Shown here one piece after another: positions 8,832 to 22,921 of a stretch of 64,000 bases of DNA. The notes under the pieces were generated by a model, which saw only the letters and a list, made by a program, of their open reading frames with translations, was not told the DNA's origin and did not search any database. The DNA comes from an uncultured Bacteroidota bacterium. GTDB taxonomy: Bacteria; Bacteroidota; Bacteroidia; B-17B0; Aurantibacillaceae. The stretch is from assembly GCA_937873155.1 (NCBI GenBank), contig CALMVZ010000026.1:62001-126000 (forward strand), written 5' to 3'. A program made the translations under genes and the position numbers. Position 1 is the first letter of the stretch. The number at the start of each line of letters is the position of its first letter.

Positions 8832-8870
8832 TTTTTAATTTGGCGGACTTTCTTCGCCCATATATTTTTA
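8832..8870. repeat. Spacer repeat flanking the Band-7 gene, copy 2
   Basis: TTTTTAATTTGGCGG (8832-8846) and CGCCCATATATTTTTA (8855-8870) repeat the blocks of 7761-7851 but with a shorter centre (8 bases instead of 58). The right block overlaps the stop codon of czcB. Confidence 0.5.
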
Positions 8871-10178
8871 ATGTGCATGCCCTTCGCCTTTGTTATTCAT
8901 TTTTGCTAAAATAAAAAACGCGCCGTTTACTACTACTTTACTGTTTGCGGGAATATCTTTTAGTAAAGTAATCTCGCTATAGCCAACATCTGTTGTTCCT
9001 TTGCGGACAGGAATTTTTTCAAAGGTGGTTCCTTCCTCCTCTGCATGTCCGCTTTCTTCTTTTTCTTCATGTTTATGCCCTTCTTCATCATGTCCTTTTT
9101 CTGCATGTTTATGCCCCTGTTCATCATGTTCCTCTTTATCTCCCTCTTCATGATGCTCTTCTTCACTGTGTGCATCAGTAACAATAAAAATATAATCCTG
9201 ACCATCATGATTAATAATGGCATTTGTAGAAACGGCATCCACATTGGCATTTTCTAAACTCACCAATGCAGAGATACTCATACCATCGATCAGCCCTGTT
9301 TTATCGCCTTTTACCATAGCATGTACCGCAATGGCTTTTGTGCTTTCTTCAAAAGTATTACTGATTGCGTATACATCTGCATCATATTCTTTACCTGCAT
9401 TATTAGTAAGAGTGAAATGAATGGTTTGGCCAACCTTCATTTTTATCAAGTCCTTTTCGTAAACATATAAATCTAAGTGCAATTGACTATTGTCTACAAT
9501 TTCTGCAATAGAGTTATTTGCATCAATGAAACTACCAATATTTACCTCTACATTACTTACTACACCACTGATCGGGCTTGTAATATTTACAACTGAATGA
9601 ATATTTTCACTTGTCAATGATGAGACATTGATACCAACCATTTCTAATTGTTTTTGCAAACTTGCTTTCCGTGCTTTCAAAATTCTTAATTCAGATTCAA
9701 CCGATTGAAAATTTTTCAATGCACCTGCGTTACCTGCTTGCAATTCTTTTTGTCTGGCTACTTCTAATTCAGATAAGGCCGTTTTTGACGACACACTTAG
9801 ATATTCTTCCTGCATGGTAATAAAAGATGTGTTTGCAATGGTAGCTATCACCTGTCCTTTACTCACCGTATTACCGGCAGAAATCAAAATTGATTTTATA
9901 ACACCGCCAATCAAAGAAGTAATTGTTGCTTTATTTTGATTTGGTACTTTTAAAATGCCATTTGCTTTTAGCGAAGCTGTTAGCTGCTTTTTTTCGATAG
10001 TCCCAAATTCGATCCTAATAGATTTCATCTGCGCTTCAGTGAGACTTGCGGTACTCGGATTTTCATGTTCATCATGGTGCTCTGTTTCGCTTTCAGCTTC
10101 TTTTTTATCCGAAGAATTTCCACAAGACGAAAAGAAAATAGTTATAGCTATTATTGATATAATTGTTAGATTTTTCAT
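8868..10178 (-). CDS. czcB: CzcB-type RND periplasmic adaptor (membrane fusion protein)
   Basis: A 436-residue lipoprotein adaptor (signal ending FFSSC, Cys19) that would join the inner-membrane pump to the outer-membrane channel. After a His/Glu-rich linker (AESETEHHDEHE) come the barrel-sandwich half motif (ATITSLIGGVIKSILISAGN), a long alpha hairpin (about residues 120-190), the second half (ITSPISGVVSNVEVNIGSF) and beta-barrel segments. Between residues about 345 and 390 an insert contains more than ten His within Glu/Lys repeats (EEHHEEGDKEEHDEQGHKH), surely able to bind Zn or similar ions. The C-terminus also ends in GHAH. The gene ends 10 bp after the czcA-C stop region in transcript order, so the pump subunits are co-transcribed. 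Confidence 0.92.
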   Translation of the reverse strand: MKNLTIISIIAITIFFSSCGNSSDKKEAESETEHHDEHENPSTASLTEAQMKSIRIEFGTIEKKQLTASLKANGILKVPNQNKATITSLIGGVIKSILISAGNTVSKGQVIATIANTSFITMQEEYLSVSSKTALSELEVARQKELQAGNAGALKNFQSVESELRILKARKASLQKQLEMVGINVSSLTSENIHSVVNITSPISGVVSNVEVNIGSFIDANNSIAEIVDNSQLHLDLYVYEKDLIKMKVGQTIHFTLTNNAGKEYDADVYAISNTFEESTKAIAVHAMVKGDKTGLIDGMSISALVSLENANVDAVSTNAIINHDGQDYIFIVTDAHSEEEHHEEGDKEEHDEQGHKHAEKGHDEEGHKHEEKEESGHAEEEGTTFEKIPVRKGTTDVGYSEITLLKDIPANSKVVVNGAFFILAKMNNKGEGHAH

Positions 10179-10188
10179 TGTCTTAATT

Positions 10189-13100
10189 TTATTTGTTTAG
10201 TAAAAAATTTATATTAATAATGGATTGATTAAGCTGGTCTACCGATTGGAGGTAACTTAATCGCACATCATTAGCGGTTTGCAGTGCCTGCAAATACTCA
10301 ATATATCCAATATCTCCGCTTTTAAAACTAACCGTTGCTGTATTAATTATTATGTCAACGTTTGGCAAAGCGGTTGTTTTATAATAGTTGTACTGTGATA
10401 GATTCTGATTATATTGACTGAAAGCATTTTGCATTTGCGTTTTTAAAACCAGTTTGTTATTATCAGCTTCTTTAACTAATGATTGCTGTGTGTATTTTAA
10501 TGATTTTATTCTTGCAGAGCTGCTAAAAAAAGTAAGAGGAATTCCTATTCCAATATTAAAACCATGAAAGCGGTTACTTCCATCAAAATAGACATCGCTG
10601 CCATTAATAACCTGGGTTCCAATTAGCGACTGATTAAAATATCCTATTGTAAAATCAGGCATTACCATTGACACTTCTACTTTTTTAGTTTTTTCAGCAA
10701 TAACTGCCTGTTGGTACAAAAATTTAACAGAGGGATTATTAGTGATTAATGAAGTATCCAAAGAATTGCTTAAGGTTAATGGCAGGAAGTCCTGATTCAC
10801 ACTAATAACAAAATCTTCGGCAGTATTCATCAGTGATCTTAATGTAGCATAAGCCATTGATATATCAGCTTCATTCTGTTTTAGCATTTGTGTTACCTGT
10901 CCACGTTTACTTTCAGCAGTTGCCTTTTCCAATAAATTAGTTTCGCCCGTTTTATACCGCAGCATAGATGCTTTAACAAAATTATCATACAAGCTATCTA
11001 ATTCTTGCAAATGTTTTCTGGTATTTTGCAGATATTGCAATTGATAAAAATAAGATTGCACTTGCGCTTTAATTTCGTTTGCACTCGCTTGCTTCAAAAA
11101 TTCACTTGCCTGCAATTGCGCCTTATACAAGCTTGATCTGGCAGAATAATAACCCGGAAAAGGAATGTTTTGAGATACCTGAAATGCTTTATCCTGATTA
11201 ATACTATTGTACTGACCCATTTGAAGATTCACATTTGTTTTTGGTAATTCAAAGGGAGATTTTTTCAAGGCTGTAGAGGATTGTACTTTAAGTTGCTGCG
11301 ATTGCAGACTTAAATTATTTTTTAAAGCTGTTGAAATAGCATCTTCTACAGTAATGTTTTTTTGCGTAGTCTGTGCATTTGTAACAAAACAGCTGCATAT
11401 CATTATGAGTACGACAACTGTCTTAGAAATAGCGGGCTTGATCTTACCTGCATTATAAAACAACAAATAAAGTAACGGCAAAACAAACAAGGTTAAAAAA
11501 GTAGCCGTAATTAACCCTCCTATCACTACTGTAGCTAAAGGTTTTTGCACCTCTGCACCAGCACCATGTGATAACGCCATTGGTAAAAATCCTAACGAGG
11601 CTACAACCGCCGTCATTAGCACTGGCCTTAAACGTATTTTAGTTCCTTCTCTTACTCTTTCTAAAATATCTGTCATACCATCTTTTTCTAATTGATTAAA
11701 CGTTCCTATAAGTACTATACCATTTAAAACCGCTACGCCAAATAGGGCAATAAATCCAATTCCTGCTGAAATACTAAAAGGCATATCGCGAATAAGTAAC
11801 GCAAATACACCTCCAATAGCTGACATTGGAATTGCTGTAAAAATTAATGTAGCCTGTTTTACAGAGTTGAATGTGAAATATAATAACATAAATATAAGTG
11901 CCAATGCCGCAGGTACAGCTATCATTAATCGCTTAGAGGCTGCTTGTAAGTTTTCAAATGTTCCACCATAGGTGTAATAATAACCTTCGGGCAATTTTAC
12001 TTTTTCAGCCAATTGATTTTGAATATCGGTAACAACACTTGAAACGTCCCTTCCTTTGACATTAAAACCAATTACGATTCTGCGTTTACCACTTTCACGA
12101 CTGATTTGGGCAGGACCCAATTCCATTTTTATCTCTGCTACTTGCGATAAAGGTATTTGTGTCCCGTTTGCGGACGGTATGTATAAATGGCTAACATCTT
12201 CAATATTGTTTCTGTGTGCACTATCTAATCTCACCACTAAATCAAATTTGCGTTCGTTCTCAAATACAACACCTGCGCCACCACCTGCAAATGAAGTGCT
12301 AACGATGTGGTTAATATCCTCTATGTTTAAACCATAATTGGCAATCTGAGAACGGTTATAATTTATCACTATTTGAGGCAATCCGGCTACGCGTTCAACA
12401 CTAGGTTCAGTTGCTCCCTGTACACTTTGTACTACTGAATTAACTTTGTTGGCATAAGCCAATAATGTATCCATGTTTTCACCAAAAATTTTAACGGCAA
12501 CGTCCTGACGAATACCCGTCATTAATTCATTGAAGCGCATTTGTATTGGTTGGTTCTTTTCAAAGAAAACACCGGGAATTGTTTCTAGTTTTTCATTGAT
12601 CTCATCTGCCAATTCATCGTAAGAAATATCTCTTTTCCATTCGCTTTGAGGCTTTAAAATGATCATCATGTCAGAAGCTTCGGGCGGCATTGGATCGGTT
12701 GGCACTTCAGCTGCGCCTGTTTTACCAACCACCATTTTTACTTCGTCAAACTCTTTAATTAAACGGGAAGCCTGCATGGATGTTTCTATACTTTGAGATA
12801 AGGATGTTCCTTGTGAAAGAATACAATGAAAAGCAAAATCGCCTTCCTGTAATGTCGGTATAAATTCACCCCCCATTCTTGAGAAAATAAACACAGCAAT
12901 AAAAAAAACAGATATTGTTACCATTACTACTGATTTCTTAAAACGAATTGATTTTTCTAATAGCGGCACATAACCTCTTTTGAAAAAGTTCATCATTTTA
13001 TCACTTATAGTTACTTTGTGAGAGATGTTTTTTGATAAAAATTTAGCACACATCATTGGAATGTAAGTGAGAGATAATATCAATGCACCAAAAATCGCAA

Positions 13101-14547
13101 AGCCAACAGTTTGCGCCATTGGCCCGAACATTTTCCCTTCGATACCAACAAGGGTAAGAATAGGGATGTACACGATCAGGATAATAATTTCCCCAAAAGC
13201 CGCACTGCTCCTTATTTTTGATGCAGAAACAAATACTTCATCGTCCATTTCTGTTTGTGTTAATCTTCTGGCAATTTTTCTCATTGATAAATGATGAAGA
13301 GTTGCTTCTACTATAATTACAGCACCATCTACAATTAAACCAAAATCAATTGCTCCTAAACTCATTAAGTTCGCACTGACTCCAAATAAATTCATCATTG
13401 CTAAGGCAAACAACATAGATAATGGGATAGCAGATGCTACAATCAATCCTGCCCTAAAGTTTCCGAGAAACAGAACCAAAACGAAGATCACAATTAAAGC
13501 ACCTTCAATCAGATTTGTTTGAACGGTGGAGATTGCGCGCCCAACAAGATCCGTTCTATCCAAATAAGGTTCAATCACCACGTCTTTTGGCAGCGACTTT
13601 TGAATAGTAGTCATTTTATCTTTTACACGATTTACAACTTCAGCACTGTTTGATCCTTTCAACATCATTACAACACCACCAACCGCATCTACCTCTCCAT
13701 TATAAGTGAGCGCACCATACCGAACCGCACTTCCTAGATGTACTTCAGCAACATCTTTAATAAGAACCGGAATTCCATTGGGAGCAGTTTTTACAACAAT
13801 GTTTTTTATATCTTCAAAAGAACCGATCAAACCAACACCACGAATGAAATAGGCGTTTGGTTTTTTATCGATATAAGCACCACCGGTGTTTTCGTTGTTC
13901 TTTTCCAGTGCAGTAAAAATTTCAGGAATGCTTATTCCCATAGCCAATAAGCGATCGGGGTTAACTGCGACTTCGTATTGTTTTAACTGACCGCCAAAAC
14001 TGTTGATTTCTGCAATGCCCGGAGTTCCGTAAAGCTGTCTTGCCACAATCCAGTCCTGCATGGTTCTCAGATCCATTGCTGTATATTTTGATTCGCTACC
14101 TTTTGCAGGATGAATAATGTATTGATAAACCTCTCCTAATCCTGTACTTACAGGAGCTAATTCAGGAGTGCCAATACCGTTTGGTATTTTACTTTCCGCC
14201 TCCTTTAATCTTTCATTGATCAATTGACGGGCAAAGTAAATATCTACCTTATCATCGAACACAACCGTAATTACTGAAAGCCCGAAACGGGAGATGCTTC
14301 GTAGTTCCACTAAATCTTGAAGGTTTGCAATACTTTGCTCGATTGGGTAAGTAACTAATTGTTCCACCTCCTGTCCTGCGAGGGTGGGGCAAAATGTAAT
14401 GATCTGCACCTGATTATTAGTGATATCAGGAAGTGCATCAATAGGTAGCTTAGTTGCACTCCATACTCCCCAAATAATGAGTGCAAAAGTCATCAATCCA
14501 ATGATGAATTTGTTTTTAATACTGAACGAAATTATTTTATCTAACAT
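10189..14547 (-). CDS. czcA: CzcA heavy-metal RND pump fused to a CzcC-like outer-membrane channel
   Basis: A 1452-residue fusion. Residues 1-1040 are a complete heavy-metal RND antiporter: LPIDALPDITNNQVQI near 34-49, two large periplasmic loops, and the proton-relay signature DFGLIVDGAVIIVE with Asp401, Asp407 and Glu414, typical of the Zn/Co/Cd/Ni-exporting CzcA class. Around 1045-1070 a hydrophobic segment ending CFVTNAQ looks like an embedded signal peptide. Residues 1070-1452 are a TolC/CzcC-type outer-membrane factor with long helices and NLLEKATAESKRGQ. Fused CzcA-CzcC proteins are known in Bacteroidota, and the internal signal may be cleaved to release the channel. With czcB it forms the whole envelope-spanning metal exporter. 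Confidence 0.93.
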   Translation of the reverse strand: MLDKIISFSIKNKFIIGLMTFALIIWGVWSATKLPIDALPDITNNQVQIITFCPTLAGQEVEQLVTYPIEQSIANLQDLVELRSISRFGLSVITVVFDDKVDIYFARQLINERLKEAESKIPNGIGTPELAPVSTGLGEVYQYIIHPAKGSESKYTAMDLRTMQDWIVARQLYGTPGIAEINSFGGQLKQYEVAVNPDRLLAMGISIPEIFTALEKNNENTGGAYIDKKPNAYFIRGVGLIGSFEDIKNIVVKTAPNGIPVLIKDVAEVHLGSAVRYGALTYNGEVDAVGGVVMMLKGSNSAEVVNRVKDKMTTIQKSLPKDVVIEPYLDRTDLVGRAISTVQTNLIEGALIVIFVLVLFLGNFRAGLIVASAIPLSMLFALAMMNLFGVSANLMSLGAIDFGLIVDGAVIIVEATLHHLSMRKIARRLTQTEMDDEVFVSASKIRSSAAFGEIIILIVYIPILTLVGIEGKMFGPMAQTVGFAIFGALILSLTYIPMMCAKFLSKNISHKVTISDKMMNFFKRGYVPLLEKSIRFKKSVVMVTISVFFIAVFIFSRMGGEFIPTLQEGDFAFHCILSQGTSLSQSIETSMQASRLIKEFDEVKMVVGKTGAAEVPTDPMPPEASDMMIILKPQSEWKRDISYDELADEINEKLETIPGVFFEKNQPIQMRFNELMTGIRQDVAVKIFGENMDTLLAYANKVNSVVQSVQGATEPSVERVAGLPQIVINYNRSQIANYGLNIEDINHIVSTSFAGGGAGVVFENERKFDLVVRLDSAHRNNIEDVSHLYIPSANGTQIPLSQVAEIKMELGPAQISRESGKRRIVIGFNVKGRDVSSVVTDIQNQLAEKVKLPEGYYYTYGGTFENLQAASKRLMIAVPAALALIFMLLYFTFNSVKQATLIFTAIPMSAIGGVFALLIRDMPFSISAGIGFIALFGVAVLNGIVLIGTFNQLEKDGMTDILERVREGTKIRLRPVLMTAVVASLGFLPMALSHGAGAEVQKPLATVVIGGLITATFLTLFVLPLLYLLFYNAGKIKPAISKTVVVLIMICSCFVTNAQTTQKNITVEDAISTALKNNLSLQSQQLKVQSSTALKKSPFELPKTNVNLQMGQYNSINQDKAFQVSQNIPFPGYYSARSSLYKAQLQASEFLKQASANEIKAQVQSYFYQLQYLQNTRKHLQELDSLYDNFVKASMLRYKTGETNLLEKATAESKRGQVTQMLKQNEADISMAYATLRSLMNTAEDFVISVNQDFLPLTLSNSLDTSLITNNPSVKFLYQQAVIAEKTKKVEVSMVMPDFTIGYFNQSLIGTQVINGSDVYFDGSNRFHGFNIGIGIPLTFFSSSARIKSLKYTQQSLVKEADNNKLVLKTQMQNAFSQYNQNLSQYNYYKTTALPNVDIIINTATVSFKSGDIGYIEYLQALQTANDVRLSYLQSVDQLNQSIININFLLNK

Positions 14548-14620: not shown

Positions 14621-14925
14621 GAAAGCTTTGGCGGTTGCCAGATTGGAATAACAGCAGCAGAAGTTTTTACAACCTTGTGAAGCGTGAAAACAGTATTGAT
14701 TACTGCTATTTGATTTGAAGAAGTTTCAAAATCTTTAACTACAAAGTGTGTAGCACAACAAGAGCAGACACATAAAGGGGTACAGGCTTCATCCTTATGT
14801 TCGTGATTTTTGGCTTGTGCATTTTGTGAGTGATTTGCTTCATTGCAATCATCATTATCACCACAAGGCATAACCGTGAGTAAACTAAAGTAAAAAGCAA
14901 ATAATATGTAGAAAGTTTTTTTCAA
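14617..14925 (-). CDS. Small Cys/His-rich exported protein (DUF6660-like)
   Basis: A 102-residue protein with an N-terminal signal (FYILFAFYFSLLTVMP), a His/Asp/Asn-rich segment (residues 22-47) and a cysteine cluster CTPLCVCSCC followed by a hydrophobic C-terminal part ending IWQPPKLS. This is the arrangement of the DUF6660 proteins commonly found directly upstream of czc pumps in Bacteroidota. The Cys/His content suggests a periplasmic metal-binding or sensing role; no reaction is known. The start is a TTG at 14925, with a TATATTTG promoter box only six bases upstream. It heads the minus-strand metal-resistance run. Confidence 0.75.
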   Translation of the reverse strand: MKKTFYILFAFYFSLLTVMPCGDNDDCNEANHSQNAQAKNHEHKDEACTPLCVCSCCATHFVVKDFETSSNQIAVINTVFTLHKVVKTSAAVIPIWQPPKLS

Positions 14926-14930
14926 CTTTA

Positions 14931-14938
14931 CAAATATA
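14931..14938 (-). promoter_or_regulatory. Bacteroidota -7 box of the metal-resistance run
   Basis: On the minus strand TATATTTG fits the TAnnTTTG -7 consensus exactly. It ends six bases before the TTG start codon at 14925, so the transcript would be leaderless or nearly so. No good -33 TTG is seen. Confidence 0.4.
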
Positions 14939-15094
14939 CGTAATTAGATTTAAATGTTAAAACGCTGGAATTGAGGCAGAAATGCTGTTTTCCTATTGCT
15001 TAGAAGAACATTTATGGTTGCTAAGTTACCTACTAAAAAACTTAACACCAGAAAAAAAAAGAAATAATTTATTTATTATAATACATGTTCGATT

Positions 15095-15437
15095 TTAAAA
15101 CACAATTAGAGTGTCCGCAATATTTGGATCATCGCTGGATTTAAAAATGAATTGCCCTGTTTGAGTTGTCTTGAAAGGAAATTTTAATTGAAACTGGGCT
15201 GGCTGATCCAAACATACTACATTATTAGGGTGCTTATAAAACGTCTTTACAGTAATTGTTTTTCCGACCTGTGTACGTTCGAGGTGATCTGCCTCATCAC
15301 ATAATTGCCCTCCACCGAAATTAACTGTTACTTGTGTTTCTTCACTTGACAAGACCAATGGACAAACCGGACTGATCTGAAATCTCAATATTGCCGTTCG
15401 GCAGAACGGATTTAACAAGAGCAATGTTACAAGTCAT
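15095..15437 (-). pseudogene. Broken secreted-protein gene at the element border
   Basis: Two overlapping frames together make sense as one protein. An ATG at 15437 starts MTCNIALVKSVLPNGNIEI and soon hits a stop. The next frame supplies SPVCPLVLSSEETQVTVNF and continues to the TAA at 15095 with a beta-rich domain (ERTQVGKTITVKTFYKH, CLDQPAQFQLKF). A single-base shift near 15370-15378 would join them. No signal peptide precedes either start, although the domain looks like a secreted Ig-like or lipoprotein module. I infer that its 5' end was lost when the adjacent element inserted and that the rest is decaying. Alternatively the 109-residue frame from a TTG at 15424 is still expressed. Confidence 0.45.
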
Positions 15438-15489
15438 ACATCAGTATGTTTAGAATTAGACTCAAATGGAATGGTAAAGTTTAATAATC

Positions 15490-15568
15490 AAGCGCTTAAT
15501 TAAGCGAATTACCCTCGATTAAGCGCTTATTCAGCAGATATTAAGCGCTTAATTCCTCATTCGCTTAA
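15490..15568. repeat. AAGCGCTTAA palindromes, left cluster
   Basis: Three full palindromes (AAGCGCTTAA at 15490, ATTAAGCGCTTAT at 15518, ATTAAGCGCTTAAT at 15540) and two half sites (TTAAGCG at 15500, CGCTTAA near 15562). The same 14-bp palindrome occurs three more times at 17629-17684, on the other side of the ATPase gene. They look like binding sites of a dimeric protein. Confidence 0.75.
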
Positions 15569-15590
15569 AAGACACCACGAAATCGGAGTG

Positions 15591-15761
15591 TTGCATAACT
15601 GAAGCATAGCTCTGACATATCTCTAGCACTTTGATGGGTTTTGTAGCATAGCTGTAGCATAACTATAGCACACCTGTAGCACTTTGGCTGGTTTTATACC
15701 TTACCTGTAGCATAGCTGAAGCACGATTGTAGCATAACTGTTGCACAATACTTGCATAAAA
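15591..15761. repeat. Array of thirteen 11-bp repeats (iteron-like)
   Basis: Units of the form GCATAACTGTA start at 15593, 15604, 15615 and 15626; then 15646, 15657, 15668 and 15679; then 15710, 15721, 15732, 15743 and 15754. Spacing within each block is exactly 11 bp, about one helical turn. The first two blocks are a 53-bp higher-order repeat, each ending GCACTTTG..GGTTTT. Eleven is not a multiple of three, so the array is not coding. It resembles replication or partition iterons, or a cooperative operator. Confidence 0.8.
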
Positions 15762-15780
15762 AAAAGGCGGAAAACCCGCC
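15757..15780 (-). terminator. Rho-independent terminator of the ATPase gene
   Basis: In the minus-strand RNA GGCGG, GUUUU and CCGCC form a tight hairpin followed by eight U. It lies 24 bp past the ATPase stop codon and overlaps the last repeat unit of the 11-bp array. Confidence 0.8.
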
Positions 15781-15803
15781 CTCTAATTAATTTTCAAAAT
15801 CTG

Positions 15804-17594
15804 TTAAACTATTCCCCGTCGGTCTGAATCAAGGTTATAACCACCCTTGTTATTGACGGTAATTTTAGGCTTTGAGATAATGGACTTAGCCTTATTCAAA
15901 TCCTGAAAATCCTCTGTTTTAAAGATCATGCCTTTTGCCTTAAAACGGTTCTTAGTGGTTTCGGCAATATAATTTTTGACATTCACCACCGTATCGCAAA
16001 TATGTTTCTTTTCGTTCGCTCCGAGCAGTTCACCTTTTTTGTTGTTTTGGTCAATGCAGATAAAAGCGGTGTTTTTATAGCGTTCAAAAATTGCTTTAAG
16101 TTTTTTTGCGTCTATTTCCATATCGTGCAAACTGTCCAGGATTATGTAGTGAAACTCATTAGGATTGACCTCCTGCATAAATTCATCGGCTGTCCTAACA
16201 TCTAAAATATGCAGATCATCAACCTCTGCCTTACAGTAAATCAGTTTATCATGGAATGTTTTATTTACCCCTTCCTCTCCGCTTACATAAAGTACCGAGC
16301 CATGATGTTCGGCAAGGTATCGTGCAAACCATAAACAAAACGTCGATTTACCTTCTCCCGAATTACCATGTATTAAAATATGAAAGTTAAGCGAAGGCAA
16401 TCCAAAAAATTCTCTCCATAGTCCTTTAAAGTTTAATGCTTCATATTTTTGATTGGCCAGTTCGGACGCGGAAATGATCTTGTCACTTTTATATCGTTTC
16501 TCTTTTTTATGTTCTTTCTTCATTTCTTTTTCTTTGTTTAACTCATCATTAAGCCCGTTCAATGCTTTTTCATATTCTGGGTTTATGACCTGCGTTGTAG
16601 TCAACTGATATTTTGGTGTTGAGCCTAAAAGCTTTTGTGTGTTACCAACTGCGTTTTTAACCTTTGTAAATTCAGATTGTATTTCTTTCATTCGTTTTTC
16701 AATCGCTTCGATCTTTTGTTTTTTATCAGTTTCCCGCGAATCTTCTGTAACCGTTTTTGCAACATATCCCGCTCCGGCTCCAACCGCACCATATACCAAT
16801 GCTTTGAGCGCACGTTCCAAAAAACTTGGTGTGTCATCTTTTGGCTCTTTATGCTTTTTCCATTTACCCTTTTTGGATTTCAAAATAGGTTTGCCTTTTG
16901 AATCTTTCAGGATCATATCACCCTCTTTTTGTTTGGATTCTTTTTTTTCAGGCACATTCAGGAAACCAAACAACCCCGCACCCAACCCGCCAAGTGAGAT
17001 CAATTCATTGCCTGTACGGTTCTGCTGATATTTTAATTCTGCTTCAAGTCTTTTATATTCCTGTTCAAGATCATGCAGAGCCTTTTGATTTTGATTGGCT
17101 GAGTTATGGTAATACTTATAAAAAGGGTTATCGGTTTGAATTTGTTTAGTGATGTATTTTTCAGGCAAAATATTTTCAGGTGTATTAATTTGTTCTTCTG
17201 CTTCGTCCTGATCTTCTTCCTCAGATTCTTCTTCCGTTACATCGGTCTGGTCAGAGTTTGCCGAAAAACTAAAATCATCAATACCTAATAACTCATTTGC
17301 TGTTTCGGAATCAACGGTAGGCGTTTTATATGATCTCTTAAATTCCTCATCACTTATAACCTGTGTATCTTCAATCCCATTTTGTTGAACATCGTTAATG
17401 GGTTCTACTGTTCCAAGATCACCCAAAGTATTTTTCTTTTTAACAACCTTCTCAGGAATTAGTTTAAGACCGTTTAACCCTGACTTTCTTTGCAGATAAT
17501 TAAAACGGTTCTGACATTCTCTTGAGCAGAATTTTGAATCCCCCCGTTTCCCTTTGTCTATTGTCTCTCCGCATTGTTCACAATGTTTGTTCAT
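15804..17594 (-). CDS. Zn-finger, membrane-zipper P-loop ATPase (RecA/RadA-like)
   Basis: A 596-residue protein with an unusual domain order. Residues 1-30 are a treble-clef type zinc finger (C5, C8, C23, C27 with FCSRECQNRF). Residues 60-165 are a low-complexity acidic linker, and 170-195 a coiled coil. Gly-rich segments occur at about 201-212 and 266-278 (LVYGAVGAGAGYVAK), the latter like a glycine zipper. Another charged coiled coil runs from 285 to 375. From 385 on there is a RecA/DnaB-like ATPase core with Walker A GNSGEGKST (410-418), a VLYVSGEEG strand as in RadA, and Walker B YIILD (483-487). No family name is assigned. The flanking palindromes and the 11-bp array suggest that it acts on DNA for replication or transfer of the element. 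Confidence 0.75.
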   Translation of the reverse strand: MNKHCEQCGETIDKGKRGDSKFCSRECQNRFNYLQRKSGLNGLKLIPEKVVKKKNTLGDLGTVEPINDVQQNGIEDTQVISDEEFKRSYKTPTVDSETANELLGIDDFSFSANSDQTDVTEEESEEEDQDEAEEQINTPENILPEKYITKQIQTDNPFYKYYHNSANQNQKALHDLEQEYKRLEAELKYQQNRTGNELISLGGLGAGLFGFLNVPEKKESKQKEGDMILKDSKGKPILKSKKGKWKKHKEPKDDTPSFLERALKALVYGAVGAGAGYVAKTVTEDSRETDKKQKIEAIEKRMKEIQSEFTKVKNAVGNTQKLLGSTPKYQLTTTQVINPEYEKALNGLNDELNKEKEMKKEHKKEKRYKSDKIISASELANQKYEALNFKGLWREFFGLPSLNFHILIHGNSGEGKSTFCLWFARYLAEHHGSVLYVSGEEGVNKTFHDKLIYCKAEVDDLHILDVRTADEFMQEVNPNEFHYIILDSLHDMEIDAKKLKAIFERYKNTAFICIDQNNKKGELLGANEKKHICDTVVNVKNYIAETTKNRFKAKGMIFKTEDFQDLNKAKSIISKPKITVNNKGGYNLDSDRRGIV

Positions 17595-17628
17595 GGCTTT
17601 GGTTTTTAATCTTAGCCGTTATCCGCTG

Positions 17629-17684
17629 AATTAAGCGCTTAATCGGCTCTGTTATACTGTTTAAGCGCTTATTAAGCGCTTAAT
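17629..17684. repeat. ATTAAGCGCTTAAT palindromes, right cluster
   Basis: Three copies, at 17629-17643, 17661-17671 and 17671-17684, upstream of the ATPase start on the minus strand. The last two are adjacent and share one base. Their place in the promoter region suggests autoregulation by a palindrome-binding protein of the element. Confidence 0.75.
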
Positions 17685-17695
17685 TTATTGTTGCT

Positions 17696-17722
17696 TTAAA
17701 AGGGGCGGTGTTTCCGCCCCTT
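17696..17722 (-). terminator. Terminator of the small acidic-protein gene
   Basis: The minus-strand RNA AAGGGGCGG, AAACA and CCGCCCCUU form a nine-pair stem followed by UU and a U/A-rich tract. It lies 20 bp past the stop at 17742 and separates that gene from the ATPase gene. Confidence 0.75.
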
Positions 17723-17741
17723 AGTTTAGCATCGCTTTGGA

Positions 17742-17981
17742 TTACTTATCGTCCTCTTCTTCTTCCTCCTCTTCCTCGCCTGAAAGCTGTTCTTTCAGGT
17801 CTTGAAGGTGTTCTTCCAGTTCGTCGATCAATCCTGCATCGCTCTTATCGTAATGAACCTCGATTTCGATTTCATCGTCTTCGTTCCTTCCAACAACCCG
17901 GTTAGACAAACCTGTTTCTGCTAACTTTTCTGTGAAGTCCCCGAATATTTCGGCTGGCACTTCAAATTCAATTTTGCGCAT
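17742..17981 (-). CDS. Small acidic protein of the element
   Basis: 79 residues, starting MRKIEFEVPAEIFGDF and ending in an almost pure Glu/Asp tail (eight Glu in a row, then DD). The core is predicted to be beta-alpha (EIEIEVHYDKSDAGLIDELEEHL). No family is recognised. The acidic tail could mimic DNA or bind a basic partner. It starts 11 bp after the stop of the HTH gene on the same strand, so the two are probably co-transcribed, and a strong terminator follows. Such small acidic proteins next to excisionase-type genes are common in Bacteroidota elements, but no function is known. Confidence 0.7.
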   Translation of the reverse strand: MRKIEFEVPAEIFGDFTEKLAETGLSNRVVGRNEDDEIEIEVHYDKSDAGLIDELEEHLQDLKEQLSGEEEEEEEEDDK

Positions 17982-17992
17982 TGCTTTAATTT

Positions 17993-18361
17993 TTAATGGT
18001 TTTGATTATTATTGTTTTTGCGGTCTTTCTTTTTGCCACCGTTTAACAGGAAGTTTTCCGCTTGCCCTTCCAGTTCCGGTTTTGTTTTTACTTTTCCTGA
18101 TCTAATCCATTCTTCTAACTCCTTTCTTTTAAAATATAGTTTGTTTCCTTTTTTAAAATGAGGGATCACCTTTAACGAGGTCTTTTCGTAAAGCGTAGCG
18201 ATCTTGAGTTTTAGAAATGAAGCTGCCTCCCTGATATTTAAAATATCGGGCAGATCGTTCTTTAAATTCTTTAAATCTTCGCTTAGGATTTCTTTAATGG
18301 CCGACTTCAGAAATTCCTTGAATTCCTGTTCGGTAAGGCTGGTTAAAAATGATGCTCCCAT
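17993..18361 (-). CDS. Excisionase-like helix-turn-helix protein
   Basis: 122 residues. The centre (about 43-92) is the winged HTH typical of excisionase/MerR-like (HTH_17) proteins: LNIREAASFLKLKIATLYEKTS, then an HFKKGNKLYFKRKELEEWI wing and helix. The N-terminal helix resembles the coiled segment of element-encoded HTH proteins in Bacteroidota. The C-terminus is basic and Asn-rich. The ATG at 18361 is at the edge of a perfect 11-bp inverted repeat that could be its own operator. It is probably a recombination directionality factor and/or regulator of this element, working with the integrase at 21291-22442. Confidence 0.8.
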   Translation of the reverse strand: MGASFLTSLTEQEFKEFLKSAIKEILSEDLKNLKNDLPDILNIREAASFLKLKIATLYEKTSLKVIPHFKKGNKLYFKRKELEEWIRSGKVKTKPELEGQAENFLLNGGKKKDRKNNNNQNH

Positions 18362-18390
18362 TGTAGTACACTTTTATCTGTGTACTACAA
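18361..18390 (-). promoter_or_regulatory. Inverted repeat overlapping the start of the excisionase-like gene
   Basis: TTGTAGTACAC (18361-18371) and GTGTACTACAA (18380-18390) are perfect inverted arms with an 8-base centre. The base at 18361 is already the first base of the ATG. As DNA it would be an operator for a dimer. As RNA the hairpin would hide the ribosome-binding region. Confidence 0.6.
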
Positions 18391-18417
18391 AGTTCAGTCT
18401 ATGATTTGGGGTTTGAA

Positions 18418-18447
18418 GGGTTCTTGAAGGTTCGTGCTACCTTGAAA
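18418..18447. repeat. Element-specific motif, copy 1
   Basis: GGGTTCTTGAAGGTTCGTGC followed by TACCTTGAAA, 57 bp upstream of the excisionase-like gene start. The copy at 22522-22553 matches at 24 positions in three blocks (GGGTTCTTGAA, TTCGTGC, TTGAAA) and sits upstream of the integrase start. Confidence 0.6.
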
Positions 18448-18454
18448 CGACCTC

Positions 18455-18485
18455 TTTTGGTTCACCTATAATTCTACTATCTTTG
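18455..18485 (+). promoter_or_regulatory. Promoter of the putAbiC-like gene
   Basis: TTTTG at 18455-18459, then 18 bp, then TATCTTTG at 18478-18485, an exact TAnnTTTG -7 box. The predicted transcription start falls on or next to the ATG at 18491, so the message would be leaderless. Confidence 0.5.
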
Positions 18486-18490
18486 TTTAT

Positions 18491-19183
18491 ATGTACCCGC
18501 GCTTTGTAATAGACTTAACTGAGGTAGCAAAAATTGCAATCCCTTCCTTCATTGCCTTTTATGTTCTGTGGAGGCAATTAATACGAAACAGGCAAATGCA
18601 AGCCGAAGGAACCTTTTTTAGTTTATTGAATTCCATAAGGAGCCTGGTCGCAAATACAGAAGGAAGTATTACACAGGCTAAAAGCGACGCATATTCAATG
18701 TACCCAGATAATAAAGGGAAAGGCGTTGAATATTTTTCAAAAGCAAATAATGAATTGCAAAATAGATTAATGAAAGCACTTGGAGATAAAATGGTTAATT
18801 TGGCTATTAGTGCGAATGAGAAAGACGCAAAAGGCGTAAGCGAAATACACCAAATGGCTAAAGACACCTACAATGATTTCTTCCGAGATCATATTGCTGA
18901 ATTAGCCCATTATTACAGGTTTACTTTTAATGCGATTACTTTCGTAGATACCCATCCAGACATTCCGAAAAGAAAAAAGGAGCAATACATCAAATTCATT
19001 CAATCTCAAATGTCAGATAGTGAGCTTCAATTATTATATTACAACGGGATCGGACAGCATGGTAAAAAGTATTATGATCTTATTGAGAAGTATAATTTTC
19101 TCGAAAATATAACTACTTCAGGCAATAAGGGAATGATTGAATTTCTTGAAAATTTTTATCCTAAAAGTTCTTTTAGGCTTTAA
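18491..19183 (+). CDS. putAbiC-like phage abortive infection protein
   Basis: 230 residues with one N-terminal membrane segment (IAIPSFIAFYVLWRQL) and a long alpha-helical body. The C-terminal part matches the pattern I know from the putative phage abortive infection family (putAbiC): HYYRFTFNAITFVDTH, then YIKFIQSQMSDSELQLLYYN and an EKYNFLENI ending. Such proteins are linked with anti-phage defence; the mechanism is not established. It is transcribed opposite to its neighbours from its own promoter and ends 3 bp from the end of the convergent HEPN gene. N-terminal sequence and start are well supported, since no ATG precedes 18491. Confidence 0.75.
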   Translation: MYPRFVIDLTEVAKIAIPSFIAFYVLWRQLIRNRQMQAEGTFFSLLNSIRSLVANTEGSITQAKSDAYSMYPDNKGKGVEYFSKANNELQNRLMKALGDKMVNLAISANEKDAKGVSEIHQMAKDTYNDFFRDHIAELAHYYRFTFNAITFVDTHPDIPKRKKEQYIKFIQSQMSDSELQLLYYNGIGQHGKKYYDLIEKYNFLENITTSGNKGMIEFLENFYPKSSFRL

Positions 19184-19186
19184 TTA

Positions 19187-19909
19187 TTATTTTACGCCTA
19201 TTAGTTCAAATATTAATTGACTACAAACTGTCTTTAACTTCTTTAATTTGTTGTCGCCGTTAATACCAAAGATGATATAAATTTCACCGGGGTTAATTAA
19301 GTGAGCACTTTTGTTTCGAGCCTTATTTAGCTTTTCGGCTGACTTAAACCATTCATCAGTGAATTTTGCTAATTGAATCTCTAAATCTTTATTAATGCTT
19401 TTATATTTTATTTTCTCCTCTTCGGGCATATCTAAATAAACCATTGGTCTTGTTTCGCCTTTGTCCTTAAAAAAAGCATCAGTTAACAGTTCGATATCTT
19501 TAAAAATATTTGGGTTATTTTCCCTGATATACATTATAAGTTCCCATGATCCGCCGTAGGTGATTTGATGTCTAACAGCAGGCTTAATTTCTTTCAGTTT
19601 GTCTTGGGATTTTTTGAACTTTTTAAGAAACTCAACGCATTCCATGAAACTTTTTGGAAGTAATGAATATTTCAAATCACAATCTTCACGAGAATGTTTT
19701 TTTAATTCTAATAATGTCATTATAGCATCCCGAATTATAAAGTCGATCAGAAGCCATGTTTCTATTATAACAATACGAGTATTTTTTTGATTCTTTATCT
19801 CCTTTATTGTTCCTTTTGTAAGATCAATAAGGTCTGTCATTTCTTCAAGACGATGATATGCAAACGGAAATTTATTATGGTCTATATTGTCTTTGCGTTT
19901 TCTCGTCAT
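19187..19909 (-). CDS. HEPN-like protein (RNxxxH motif), likely ribonuclease
   Basis: 240 residues, all-alpha. No named family is recognised overall, but Arg198-Asn199 and His203 in KARNKSAHL form the RNxxxH motif of HEPN ribonucleases, placed after a long helix as expected. An N-terminal helix with IETWLLIDFIIRDAIM (about 50-64) would pack as the first HEPN helix. HEPN proteins cut RNA in toxin-antitoxin and abortive infection systems. The gene is convergent with the putAbiC-like gene (3-bp gap) and 15 bp downstream of the next gene on its own strand, so it may be co-transcribed with the RteC-like gene. The motif is seen; the activity is inferred. Confidence 0.6.
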   Translation of the reverse strand: MTRKRKDNIDHNKFPFAYHRLEEMTDLIDLTKGTIKEIKNQKNTRIVIIETWLLIDFIIRDAIMTLLELKKHSREDCDLKYSLLPKSFMECVEFLKKFKKSQDKLKEIKPAVRHQITYGGSWELIMYIRENNPNIFKDIELLTDAFFKDKGETRPMVYLDMPEEEKIKYKSINKDLEIQLAKFTDEWFKSAEKLNKARNKSAHLINPGEIYIIFGINGDNKLKKLKTVCSQLIFELIGVK

Positions 19910-19924
19910 AGCTTGCTATTGATT

Positions 19925-20782
19925 TTAGGATTTCTTTCCCTTTTGTTCGCTTATTTCTTTATCAATAAGGGTTATGATGCCGTACAAAATTTCACGCACC
20001 GTTTTACGATCATTGTACGTAAGTTCACCCTGACCTTTGAGATTTGTTTTTAACCGAAGTGTATCGGGACTGTAACCTGTAAGCAGTGAGAAAGCCTCAC
20101 CTGCGGTTTTATATGTAAGTATAGTATCGTCTTTAATAATAACCCTTGATTCTTTTAACAGGTTTATTAAATAAGCAGTTTGTGCAAGGTTCAAAGAAGT
20201 TATGTTGTCGCCCGAATCCCGTTTTACCCTTGCTTTTTTGGTGGAGGTTTCTGTTCCTGATAGATTTTGATTTTTTTGTTTAACACTAATCCATTCGTTA
20301 GCGGTTGTAATAGTATCAGGCTTTAAAAGATGTTCGTACCTTCTAAAAATAAGTTGTAAAGCCCTGAAACATTTTTCGGTATCATTATCATAACTGTTCT
20401 CCAAATGATAATTTAAGAATTCATCTAAGTTTAGTATATCAATATGACTTAGTTTACACGCAAAGAAAAAAGGAAAAAAAGGATCGGAGGATTCAATAAC
20501 ATCCATTCCCCATACATCATAATAAACCTGTTCCCGTTTCTTTCCTCTCTGCATTATCATGCCGGGAATAAACTCATGCTTCTTCATTTTTAGAATTTCT
20601 CCGAAATTTTTTGTGGTGCTATATCTCGCCATTATTTCATCTTGAAATAAATGTTTACCCTGATGATTTAACCACATAGCGGCTGTGTGAGTGTATAACT
20701 CATATCTTTTTTCATCCATTGATCTGCTTTCGCCGGCAGAAATGTGATTCAAAACCAATTCGTAATTTTCCTTGTTTTCCAT
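19925..20782 (-). CDS. Unknown element protein, RteC-like C-terminus
   Basis: 285 residues. The C-terminal 80 (LNLAQTAYLINLLKESRVI, then TYKTAGEAFSLLTGYSPDTLR and a basic helix) resemble the C-terminal region of RteC, the regulator of Bacteroides conjugative transposons. The N-terminal part (YTHTAAMWLNHQGKHLFQDE, then FFPFFFACKLSHID) is not assigned. It ends 15 bp before the HEPN gene start and probably forms a unit with it. A role as element regulator, or as the partner of the HEPN protein, is possible. The start ATG at 20782 follows an A/T-rich spacer shared with the divergent small gene. Confidence 0.5.
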   Translation of the reverse strand: MENKENYELVLNHISAGESRSMDEKRYELYTHTAAMWLNHQGKHLFQDEIMARYSTTKNFGEILKMKKHEFIPGMIMQRGKKREQVYYDVWGMDVIESSDPFFPFFFACKLSHIDILNLDEFLNYHLENSYDNDTEKCFRALQLIFRRYEHLLKPDTITTANEWISVKQKNQNLSGTETSTKKARVKRDSGDNITSLNLAQTAYLINLLKESRVIIKDDTILTYKTAGEAFSLLTGYSPDTLRLKTNLKGQGELTYNDRKTVREILYGIITLIDKEISEQKGKKS

Positions 20783-20917
20783 AATACAAATTTAATCAAT
20801 TTGTTATCTATTCAAATTTTCATTGTCAATTATAAAAAAATTTATAGTTCAATTTAATTTACAAAAAAACTTTCGTTTTAGCAAGTAGGTTGGATTTCTA
20901 TTCACAACTAAATTTTC

Positions 20918-20946
20918 TTGACATTGTTTTTCTTATCATATATTTG
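20918..20946 (+). promoter_or_regulatory. Promoter of the small plus-strand gene
   Basis: TTGACA begins at 20918 and TATATTTG, an exact -7 box, is at 20939-20946, separated from the TTG by 18 bp. It overlaps longer possible start codons of the gene (20890, 20947) and so favours the ATG at 20962. Confidence 0.5.
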
Positions 20947-20961
20947 ATGAAAATTAAAGCC

Positions 20962-21228
20962 ATGAATTATGCAACTCAAATTGTAGTTAGAACTTTCCAT
21001 AACAGTATTGAAATTGGAAAATCCTATTATGAAAAGCACAACCTTTCTCGAACATATCCGAGTAAGGAAAAAGTAGAAGAAAAATTGGCGGAGTGTCGTC
21101 AAAGAATTGAAAAGGAGGCAGAAACAGGTAAATATCCTGTTTTTTATATTGATATTGATGAAAACGGCATTCATGTGAATGAAGGCAAACCACTATATCC
21201 AATAAAAAAAGTGCCGGATTTACTTTAA
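20962..21228 (+). CDS. Small unknown protein
   Basis: 88 residues from the ATG at 20962, chosen because a promoter box ends at 20946. It begins MNYATQIVVRTFHNSIEIG, has a central Lys/Glu-rich helix (SKEKVEEKLAECRQRIEKEAE) and ends with a beta strand (FYIDIDENGIHVNEGKPLY). No family is recognised. It is the only gene besides the putAbiC-like one read rightwards in the element, and a bidirectional terminator separates it from the integrase. Longer starts at 20947 (ATG) or 20890 (TTG) cannot be excluded. Confidence 0.6.
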   Translation: MNYATQIVVRTFHNSIEIGKSYYEKHNLSRTYPSKEKVEEKLAECRQRIEKEAETGKYPVFYIDIDENGIHVNEGKPLYPIKKVPDLL

Positions 21229-21246
21229 GAATAAATTTATAATCAT

Positions 21247-21280
21247 AAAAAAAGCCCTGAATACATTTCAGGGCTTTTTA
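21247..21280. terminator. Bidirectional terminator between the small gene and the integrase
   Basis: AAAAGCCCTGAA (21250-21261) and TTCAGGGCTTTTT (21268-21280) form a stem with A and T tracts on both sides, so it can stop both converging transcripts. Confidence 0.85.
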
Positions 21281-21290
21281 TAATTTAAAA

Positions 21291-22442
21291 TTAAGCGGCT
21301 TTTACTGATTTTAAATTCAATTTCGGTAAAGCCTTTACCGCTGATTTTTTTCTGCTATCCCGAACGTGCGCATAAATTTGCGTGGCACTTATGGTCTTAT
21401 GACCTAATAATTTTGATACAGTCCATAAATCCGCATCGGGACTATTCTCCAAAATGTTTGTTGCGAAGGTATGCCTTCCTGTATGGAAGTGAATCCGCTT
21501 TTTGTCGATTCCTGCTACCTCTGCCCATTTTTTCAAACTGTACCAAACTTGTTTGTGGCGGGTTTCTCTTACTGGATCAACTTCCTTAACAAGTGGGAAC
21601 ACAAATAAACTTCTTTCGTTGTTTTCTTCCTGTTCTCTTTTGCGTTCCTTCAAAATCTCAACAGCTCCGTCCGTTAATGGCAGGTATTCTATATCTTCTG
21701 TTTTTTCCTGCTCAAAATAAATAAACCATTCTTCTTTATTGTCTATTTTTTTGGTAATTATTTCCGACCACTTTAACGGGTTTACATCACTCCAGCGAAG
21801 CCCCGTAAAACAGGAGAAAAAATAAGCCTGTTTGTATTGCGGTTCTATATTGCAGGGCGTGTCCGCTAAGCGCTGTAATTCTTCAAACGTAAAAGCATTT
21901 CTGTAAACGGGCTTTTGTCTTAATCTCTCATGGCGAGGAATTTTACGGAAAGGGTTTACATATATGATCCCTTTTCGTACCGCTTCTTCCAATGCTGTAA
22001 AGAGGTTCTTTAAATAGTCAACCGTTGTATTTACGCTTACTTTGGATTGCATATACTTACTAAAGTCTTTAATCCAATCGGGCGTAATGGCTGTAAACGG
22101 TAAAGTTTTTCCATTTAAAAAACTTTCAAGATGTTTCAGGGTTTTTTTATTGTTCTTATAATTTTGGCTTCTTCCTTCAATGTAGTTCTTAAACCACACC
22201 GCAAAGTCCGCTTTGCGTTTTGATTTATCGACAAGCCCGTTATCCTGAACAATTAATTCATTTTCCCGTTTTACTTTTATTTCATTTGCCAACCGCTTTT
22301 TTTCTTTGTCGCTTTCAGTTGGTTTGTTTTTGTTGATATGAATATCTAAGAATTCATACCATCTTTTTTTGTTGTGGTAAATATCCAAGTAATAGGATAT
22401 TTGTCCGTTACTCATTTTCTTTTCTCTTAATTGCACTCCCAT
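21291..22442 (-). CDS. Tyrosine recombinase / site-specific integrase
   Basis: 383 residues. An Arm-type DNA-binding region (about 1-75) is followed by a SAM-like core-binding domain (FAVWFKNYIEGRSQNYKNNK to about 180) and the catalytic domain. Catalytic residues are visible: Arg in FTGLRWSDV, a Lys in the beta hairpin (EQEKTEDIEYLPL), His and Arg in HFHTGRHTFAT, a His in LLGHKTISATQIYAH and the nucleophilic Tyr in IYAH. This is the size and pattern of Bacteroidota element integrases. It lies at the right end of the element facing inward, the usual arrangement with the attachment site just upstream (22.45-22.7 kb). Confidence 0.92.
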   Translation of the reverse strand: MGVQLREKKMSNGQISYYLDIYHNKKRWYEFLDIHINKNKPTESDKEKKRLANEIKVKRENELIVQDNGLVDKSKRKADFAVWFKNYIEGRSQNYKNNKKTLKHLESFLNGKTLPFTAITPDWIKDFSKYMQSKVSVNTTVDYLKNLFTALEEAVRKGIIYVNPFRKIPRHERLRQKPVYRNAFTFEELQRLADTPCNIEPQYKQAYFFSCFTGLRWSDVNPLKWSEIITKKIDNKEEWFIYFEQEKTEDIEYLPLTDGAVEILKERKREQEENNERSLFVFPLVKEVDPVRETRHKQVWYSLKKWAEVAGIDKKRIHFHTGRHTFATNILENSPDADLWTVSKLLGHKTISATQIYAHVRDSRKKSAVKALPKLNLKSVKAA

Positions 22443-22521
22443 AATTTTAGGGTTTTAAAGGGTTAATAAATAAGCCCAATACGCCCTACAACAAATTTCC
22501 CTATATAAAACGGGTAGTGTA

Positions 22522-22553
22522 GGGTTCTTGAACCTTCGTGCAATCCCTTGAAA
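22522..22553. repeat. Element-specific motif, copy 2
   Basis: GGGTTCTTGAACCTTCGTGC followed by AATCCCTTGAAA, about 80 bp upstream of the integrase start. See the copy at 18418-18447. GTTCTTGAAC inside it is nearly palindromic. Confidence 0.6.
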
Positions 22554-22678
22554 GTTTGGGTAACATACGGGTAACAAAAAGCCTCCAAACGCCTCTAAAA
22601 GAACCTAAGCCAACCTACCCGCTTTCTCTTGTAACCCTCTGATAATTTGGGTATCTTTATACCTAATGGATTTTTACT

Positions 22679-22921
22679 TTAGTTTATTGAGGTCACAAAA
22701 TGTGACCTCAAGATTTCAGCCTCATTTTCAGTCAGTTCAAACATAAAATCGTCAGGAAAACGACTTGGGTTCCTTTTTACTGATTGTTTCAGAGCCTTGG
22801 TTTCCACACCATAAAGCTCTGCAAGATCGCTGTCCAACATTACTTTTTGCCCTCTTATTAATAAGATTTTATTCATTACCGTCTCATCCGGTAATACCGA
22901 CCCGTTCTCCTTCTTTGCCAT
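22679..22921 (-). pseudogene. Truncated ORF6N-domain gene at the element border
   Basis: 80 residues. The N-terminal part is a good ORF6N domain (MNKILLIRGQKVMLDSDLAE, then a KALKQSVKRNPSRFPDDFMF stretch). It stops after LRSHFVTS, where intact members continue with a conserved Arg/Tyr/Pro-rich FTEQG region. That continuation is absent from the next 230 bp. ORF6N proteins are phage or element regulators with unknown action. I read this as a chromosomal gene cut at its 3' side by insertion of the element, although a stand-alone short ORF6N protein remains possible. Confidence 0.6.
22687..22711. repeat. Palindrome within the ORF6N fragment
   Basis: TTGAGGTCACA, AAA and TGTGACCTCAA form a perfect inverted repeat that encodes the last residues of the truncated ORF6N frame. 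It is the point where coding similarity ends and therefore a candidate attachment core. Confidence 0.45.

Follow-up and report, generated by a model that had tools for sequence, protein, structure and literature searches.

A helically phased array of 11-bp repeats in Bacteroidota integrative elements that encode a RadA-like ATPase

Known Arrays of Short Direct Repeats

Direct repeats spaced by about one helical turn have been described both for excisionases and for plasmid segregation sites. Apl of phage 186 recognises 6-bp operators arranged as direct repeats with a spacing of 10-11 bp, of which att has five and pR-pL has seven (PMC7498355). RdfS and Cox form head-to-tail filaments, and RdfS is described as having no consensus motif (PMC11963761). 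On the plasmid side, PMC3098194 and PMC9426499 describe the stbDRs of R388, which have a role in segregation, as 9-bp TTGCATCAT repeats in two sets of five with two nt between repeats, and parC of R1 as a centromere-like site of 11-bp direct repeats, ten in all. The original prediction for the DNA studied here, according to which no described system has such a layout, was thus too strong, as the R388 stbDRs, R1 parC, and the Apl operators are all close layouts.

Array in the Window

In the window, i.e., the whole 64-kb stretch of DNA that was analysed, a period-11 array at 15587-15761 is the top signal for periods 7-35 (score 65; runner-up 43). None of 1000 dinucleotide shuffles of the intergenic region 15425-15803 equalled the array score at any period from 7 to 35 (observed 64.8, shuffle maximum 32.0). 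A pattern of three TRTAGCA motifs at 11 bp, with up to three mismatches, matched five times in the window compared to 0.03 expected, and all five matches lie within the array. The array is real. It spans 15589-15760 and consists of 14 units of 11 bp, 13 recognisable and one degenerate, in blocks of 4, 4, and 6.

15589..15632, plus strand: array block 1, four 11-bp units (TGTTGCATAAC, TGAAGCATAGC, TCTGACATATC, TCTAGCACTTT) starting at 15589, 15600, 15611, and 15622
15633..15641, no strand: spacer 1, giving a 20-bp step between successive unit starts, helix re-phased
15642..15685, plus strand: array block 2, four 11-bp units starting at 15642, 15653, 15664, and 15675, two of them closest to the consensus TGTAGCATAAC
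15686..15694, no strand: spacer 2, 20-bp step
15695..15760, plus strand: array block 3, one degenerate and five recognisable 11-bp units starting at 15695, 15706, 15717, 15728, 15739, and 15750
15762..15784, minus strand: terminator-like hairpin (consensus match) 3' of the ATPase gene, adjoining the array

A GCA core is present in 12 units; the unit at 15611 has TGACA, and the unit at 15695 (TATACCTTACC) is degenerate. Thirteen units in blocks of 4 + 4 + 5 had been predicted, and the thirteen recognisable units are indeed there, with blocks of 4, 4, and 6 if the degenerate unit at 15695 is counted. Block starts are spaced by 53 bp, as predicted, but this spacing is not limited to the first two blocks, as the start of the third also fits. 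Likewise, the exact 11-bp step holds within blocks only, since the 20-bp step between unit starts across a block boundary interrupts the 11-bp register. In the window, the array was confirmed to be intergenic, and the terminator-like hairpin belonging to the ATPase gene (15784-15762) lies directly next to it.

Genes and Palindromes of the Window Element

The original prediction of a phased, protein-binding-type array in a small integrative element is supported, the exact pattern being specific, among 467 distinct genomes, to elements with this ATPase. The functions originally suggested for it (origin, partition, or transfer initiation) are candidate roles. Most genes of the window element are located on the minus strand: those encoding the ATPase, an acidic protein, an HTH_17 protein, cargo, p285, and a tyrosine integrase.

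15486..15571, no strand: cluster of palindromes, TTAAGCGCTTAA with variants, across the array from the ATPase gene
15804..17594, minus strand: RadA-like ATPase, 596 aa, with an N-terminal treble-clef-like zinc finger (below cut-off) and invariant Walker A lysine and KNR
17618..17685, no strand: another cluster of palindromes, located 5' of the ATPase gene
17742..17981, minus strand: acidic protein of 79 aa with predicted beta-alpha-beta-beta-alpha fold, weak KH-like matches, and an acidic tail; marker of the family
17993..18361, minus strand: HTH_17/excisionase-family protein, 122 aa, putative array binder
18491..19183, plus strand: cargo, putAbiC-domain protein
19187..19909, minus strand: cargo, possible HEPN protein (below curated cut-off)
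19925..20782, minus strand: p285, a conserved element protein of 285 aa with no convincing family match
21291..22442, minus strand: tyrosine integrase type A with Arm-DNA-bind_5 domain
22560..22576, minus strand: candidate integrase arm-type pair TGTTAC-N5-TGTTAC with 11-bp spacing, distinct from the array

Sites matching TTAAGCGCTTAA with at most one mismatch number seven in the window compared to 0.35 expected, and six of them are located at 15488-15552 and 17631-17683. Palindromes repeated around the ATPase gene occur in all six elements with the long form of this ATPase, with a sequence that varies by element (TTAAGCGCTTAA, TTAATCGATTAA, CTTAATTAAG). In the other loci examined no such repeated palindromes were seen, the filter leaving out palindromes composed of A and T only. 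Palindromes resembling GGTTCNNGAACC (0-2 mismatches) are situated upstream of int in five and upstream of the HTH_17 gene in all six elements with a type A integrase, e.g., at 18418-18430 and 22522-22534 in the window, at 4976 and 7219 in L038, at 3441 in L042, and at 4965 in L045. Possibly they represent a shared operator; in the window alone, the two-mismatch pattern is not above chance (5 versus 2.7).

No known RNA family scored above its gathering score in 14900-22700. Concerning the element borders, no shared repeat that could serve as att core was found at the ends of the two related elements of genome G011 (see below), and right-flank synteny, sought in order to place an empty site, was not found in the five same-genus genomes examined (of seven). 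The right flank of the window element holds a 34-bp perfect palindrome at 23076-23109, and an open frame of 1452 aa at 10189-14547 resembles, by eye, a fusion of a CzcA-type efflux pump with a CzcC-like outer-membrane factor. Very large proteins adjoin three further elements (L036 9322-13998, L037 2638-7077, and L040 10008-15275) and may be cargo. A type IX secretion sorting domain was detected in 10 out of 64 scanned flank proteins.

A RadA-Like ATPase

A profile of ten ATPase sequences, including that of the window, retrieved only RadA from the PDB sequences at E <=0.01 (5lkm, E 1.8e-10; 8rxc, E 2e-10). RadA (8rxc) was also the best fold match of the ATPase model, which was searched whole and is of low confidence (mean pLDDT 61). 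Because of this poor model the assignment rests more on sequence than on fold. In NCBIfam, the best match is RadA/Sms with 35 bits compared to an equivalog cut-off of 403, restricted to residues 379-493; thus, only the ATPase domain aligns, and a full-length match above the curated cut-off, as expected for a RadA/Sms equivalog, was not obtained. KNR of the KNRF motif and the Walker A lysine are invariant in all ten ATPase sequences, and the zinc finger matches the treble clef of PF09889 below cut-off. By its sequence, the ATPase domain is RadA-like. The protein had been predicted to be a novel ATPase with a Zn finger; instead, a RadA-family domain is combined with an N-terminal zinc finger of its own, and the protein belongs to a widespread family of integrative elements.

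Distribution of the Array in the Element Family

Relatives were collected by an ATPase search of 87 family genomes and with gene models built in this analysis. Ten elements in seven genomes encode the integrase, the HTH_17 protein, the acidic protein, and the ATPase, and, except for L040, all of them also encode p285 or p270. The long-form ATPase occurs in six of these, namely the window element, L036, L037, L038, L039, and L040. The acidic marker protein was found in 20 out of 395 genomes of the class, taken as Bacteroidia (E <=1e-6). Its profile matched at 29 places, of which four were already known and 20 of the other 25 were examined, so that 30 loci were available together with the first ten elements. 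Among these 20 further loci, seven have no ATPase match and two a weak one, and several are cut by contig ends.

TAGCA arrays occur in three of the 30 loci: in the window, in L037 (11797-11914), and in L039 (3966-4084, minus strand). L037 and L039 are related elements in one other genome, G011, and the arrays are common to elements of two genera. The G011 arrays share the core TAGCA and consist of four and then six units, separated by a 19- or 20-bp step. A divergent 11-bp array with the core TAGAA is located in L040 at about 8832-8935 between convergent genes, where it represents the top period of the region (z 5.9). We list it as three plus one beside the TAGCA arrays, a listing by layout that leaves kinship aside. 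No comparable intergenic 11-bp array was found in the other 26 loci, several of which are on contigs that break off inside the element or close to it. The z values of the arrays range from 5.6 to 8.1, and the best value in the 20 further loci is 4.36, except for L585 (5.75), where the signal is inside the ATPase gene. The same is true for the period-11 signal of L036 (z 4.7), and in L043 the leading period is 11 (z 4.6), with the signal immediately 5' of int and next to the TGTTAC pair of this element.

The place of the array varies. It follows the ATPase gene in the window and in L040 and the int gene in L037 and L039. Both G011 arrays are internal to their element and upstream of the p270 gene, and a terminator-like hairpin is located beyond the array of L037 (11796-11781), so that this array may be transcribed. 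L038 has no array in the stretch examined, despite 83-87% DNA identity of its module to those of L037 and L039. The array is an accessory of the element family. The fixed link to the ATPase gene proposed by the original prediction did not hold, given that the G011 arrays adjoin the integrase gene instead and that 26 out of 30 loci are without a comparable array.

An exact three-unit pattern was searched in 87 family and 395 class genomes, corresponding to 467 distinct genomes since 15 are present in both sets. Only two genomes match, with all matches within the three array elements; the reversed control pattern gave five matches in four genomes. Neither the element family nor the array is named in the literature searched, which leaves out most subscription journals.

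Helical Phasing and Core Conservation

Assuming 10.5 bp per turn, a step of 11 bp drifts by 17 degrees per unit. Units of the window array span about 120 degrees of the helix with the 20-bp steps compared to about 223 degrees without this slip; the steps between blocks take back the 11-bp drift and thereby keep the whole array within this sector. In the G011 arrays the units occupy about 86 degrees (C30) and about 103 degrees (C17). Considering the 34 units of the three arrays, the core is conserved and the remaining letters drift: within TAGCA, information content reaches 1.76 bits for G and 2.21 bits for C, and unit positions 8-10 do not exceed 0.25 bits. The predicted consensus therefore stands as TAGCA, conserved across elements, and not as the whole GCATAACTGTA.

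These features bear on the possibility that the array serves nearby promoters as an operator or arose by neutral expansion of a repeat, two readings that together we regard as unlikely. The common core, block sizes, and phase-resetting steps, combined with drifting spacers, are not expected from neutral duplication. A regulatory role would fit the position of the G011 array upstream of the p270 gene and the Apl arrays, which double as operators. Against it, the divergent array of L040 lies between convergent stops, which speaks against a promoter role there. A sigma-70-like scan found no promoter within the window array, the nearest candidate (15853-15881) being inside the ATPase gene; Bacteroidota promoters differ from the sigma-70 type, so this weighs little.

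Integrase Arm Sites

The array could also be one arm of attP, with the tyrosine integrase binding it through its N-terminal domain. This integrase carries an Arm-DNA-bind_5 domain, and direct repeats with a spacing of about one turn can occur as arm sites. However, the repeats that follow the integrase type in all ten elements, with no cross hits, are different ones, located at the int start or shortly before it: TGTTAC pairs (11 bp) in 6/6 elements of type A and 0/4 of type B, and ACATAC pairs in 4/4 elements of type B and 0/6 of type A. We presume that these pairs are the arm sites of the respective integrases. The TAGCA array is common to two type B elements and one of type A (that of the window); its G011 copies are located inside the element, behind int. 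An arm site should track its integrase and sit at att; here the sequence crosses types. Since the pairs follow the integrase type and the array does not, the integrase is unlikely as binder, and of all readings considered an arm-site function is the least probable.

Similar Arrays on Viral Contigs

The three-unit pattern matched viral contigs at least 120 times, and 66 of the 120 matches listed are intergenic according to the frames called here. Exact four-unit arrays were found in 95 stretches for TAGCA, 70 for the reversed control ACGAT, and 109 for TGACA. After collapsing near-identical arrays, 33 out of 45, 13 out of 31, and 47 out of 76, respectively, are intergenic, and 10, 0, and 14, respectively, are intergenic with drifted spacers. 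In a 12-bp TAGCA scan, 11 out of 80 clusters among the matches listed are intergenic and one has drifted spacers, a comparison confounded by coding repeats as 12 is a multiple of 3. The neighbour proteins of the viral arrays belong to many families, among the 25 families listed per scan. A universal TAGCA phage motif is not shown by these data; rather, arrays of this kind, with an 11-bp step and a short core, are recurrent in phages and come with more than one core sequence.

Terminase genes were surveyed on 47 contigs (33 with TAGCA and 14 with TGACA arrays) of the 93 intergenic arrays; 33 TGACA and all 13 ACGAT arrays were left out, so that this comparison has no ACGAT control. Of the 33 TAGCA contigs, 14 have a terminase match above cut-off, contigs with a sub-cut-off match having been dropped before this count. 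In six of these 14, compared to 1.04 expected, the array precedes the terminase domain by 0.57-1.3 kb, and no array is that close on the downstream side (P 1.5e-4 for 1.3 kb and 0.005 for 3.5 kb, with the distance window chosen afterwards). The six contigs, with the distance taken to the large-subunit domain, are L081, L100, L208, L229, L231, and L237. A TAGCA array upstream of terminase is a possible packaging-site signature.

Accordingly, the element might be a phage satellite whose array mimics the terminase-binding site of a helper phage, a reading to which, besides the terminase neighbourhood, the defence-type cargo of the window element would fit. Several observations disagree with it. 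Neither capsid nor terminase was present among the 25 families listed, out of 73 for 64 flank proteins, and large type-IX-secreted proteins are found in the flanks of some relatives. Since the 467 genomes contain the exact pattern at no other place, none of their prophages carries it. Viral arrays are found on either strand relative to terminase, and TGACA arrays behave similarly, with three contigs having a terminase above cut-off and the array 0.92 kb and 1.7 kb upstream in two of them and far off in the third. We consider packaging improbable, slightly more so than an operator or neutral repeat, and weaker than the partition or replication site discussed below. The viral arrays would allow for a packaging or origin role, but nothing links them to the window element.

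Candidate Binders and Functions

We infer from the phased array that it is bound by a protein, and we tentatively favour the small winged-helix HTH_17 protein of the element, for which the array would form a cooperative one-face site working like excisionase, parC, or stbDR arrays. Many copies of this small DNA-binding protein would line up in head-to-tail order with one copy on each turn of the helix, and each copy would recognise the 5-bp core TAGCA. Between blocks, the 20-bp steps would reset the phase, so that all copies come to lie on about one face and could bend or wrap the DNA. The binder would most likely be the element's own winged-helix protein of the HTH_17 (excisionase) family, and the nucleoprotein may help in excision or in upkeep of the excised circle, as in the arrays of phage 186 Apl and P2 Cox, or may alternatively be a segregation strip similar to stbDR or parC.

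The window protein matches HTH_17 above cut-off (E 4.9e-11) and the excisionase model TIGR01764 just below it (E 5.2e-6, 26.7 bits, cut-off 28.8), and it may act as the RDF of the element. An HTH_17-type protein is encoded in all ten elements compared. Together with direct repeats about one turn (10-11 bp) apart, a winged-helix protein encoded by the element itself is among the features expected of an excisionase array. Another would be a place next to attP or at the regulatory promoters; no att core was found, and in G011 the array is internal. The proteins of the window (HTHx) and of G011 (HTH105) match each other's models with E of about 1e-15 to 1e-16; L040, with its core TAGAA, has no HTH105 or HTHx match of this strength, a covariation of protein and core that rests on four arrays. 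Only three of the nine elements with an HTHx or HTH105 gene have the array, which is missing in L036, L038, L041, L042, L043, and L045 in the stretches examined. The variable place of the array, which in G011 is behind int rather than at the element end, the terminator-like hairpin beyond the L037 array, and the failure to find an att core also count against this reading.

A close rival is a partition or replication site. In this case the array would resemble a centromere or iterons and would be bound not by HTH_17 but by a different protein of the element, e.g., the acidic KH-like protein. The RadA-like ATPase and the flanking palindromes would then help to replicate or segregate the excised element. 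We hold this to be doubtful, if less so than the operator, arm-site, and packaging alternatives. The R388 stbDRs, which function in segregation, have the same 11-bp period, their TTGCATCAT is similar to units such as TTGCATAAC, and ParR of R1 needs 11-bp repeats. The palindrome clusters around the ATPase gene in 6/6 long-form elements would fit as well, and on some phage contigs TAGCA arrays have a RepB-type primase gene nearby (4 among the 42 neighbour proteins that were scanned out of 111). However, apart from weak sub-threshold P-loop matches, the core proteins have no notable ribbon-helix-helix, ParM/ParA, or Rep match in Pfam, PHROGs, and NCBIfam. A ParMRC system, with ParR and ParM encoded nearby, was thus not recognised in these databases, and the acidic protein is predicted to fold as E-H-E-E-H. 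Moreover, the modules of ATPase, acidic protein, and palindromes exist without the array in L036 and L038, the latter despite its 83-87% DNA identity to the modules of L037 and L039.

It is tempting to speculate that the long-form elements carry an undescribed maintenance module composed of the zinc-finger RadA-like helicase, the palindromes, and the KH-like acidic and winged-helix proteins, in which the phased TAGCA strip serves as an exchangeable centromere or origin whose position within the element can change. We give this idea somewhat less credit than a partition or replication site.

Should the proposed binding be correct, the three arrays from two genera would provide a naturally occurring test of the maintenance of helical phase across many turns, their 19-20-bp steps between blocks cancelling the drift of an 11-bp repeat against 10.5-bp DNA. 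In addition, a widespread element family built around a RadA-like ATPase makes it directly testable why mobile elements carry RadA-type helicases.

Comparison with Known Systems

With the branch-migration helicase RadA (Sms), the element ATPase has the RecA-like domain and KNR of the KNRF motif in common; it differs by another N-terminal zinc finger, a long middle region, and its carriage by integrative elements. The ATPase of Salisaeta icosahedral phage 1 (gp40) and phrog_6891 belong to the same ATPase-domain family (phrog_6891, E 1.3e-25; SSIP-1, E 5e-8). In contrast, matches to phage records (7 records) are 24-34% identical over 24-34% of the protein, and no phage structural genes were seen in the window element.

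Repeats of parC in R1 are ordered in two blocks of five. The ParR/parC system resembles the array in its 11-bp direct repeats; the element differs in having no match to an actin-like ParM or a ribbon-helix-helix ParR. For StbA and the stbDRs of R388, the likeness comprises the 11-bp period (a 9-bp repeat plus 2), sets of five, and the similarity of TTGCATCAT to the window unit TTGCATAAC. Different from R388, the array is part of an integrated element, has blocks of 4, 4, and 6, and was not seen with an stbABC operon; no StbA-named match was obtained among the element proteins in NCBIfam, where no StbA model was among those run. Compared to Apl, window-type arrays have 10-14 instead of 5-7 units, arranged in blocks with phase-resetting steps and with att proximity unproven. 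With Apl, P2 Cox, and RdfS of ICEMlSym they share direct repeats one turn apart, a short core, and an excisionase-family HTH protein in the element, cooperative winged-helix binding being a property of the known proteins. On balance, the layout and the likely mode of action are known in kind already, and the block design and the element family with its RadA-like ATPase appear to be new.
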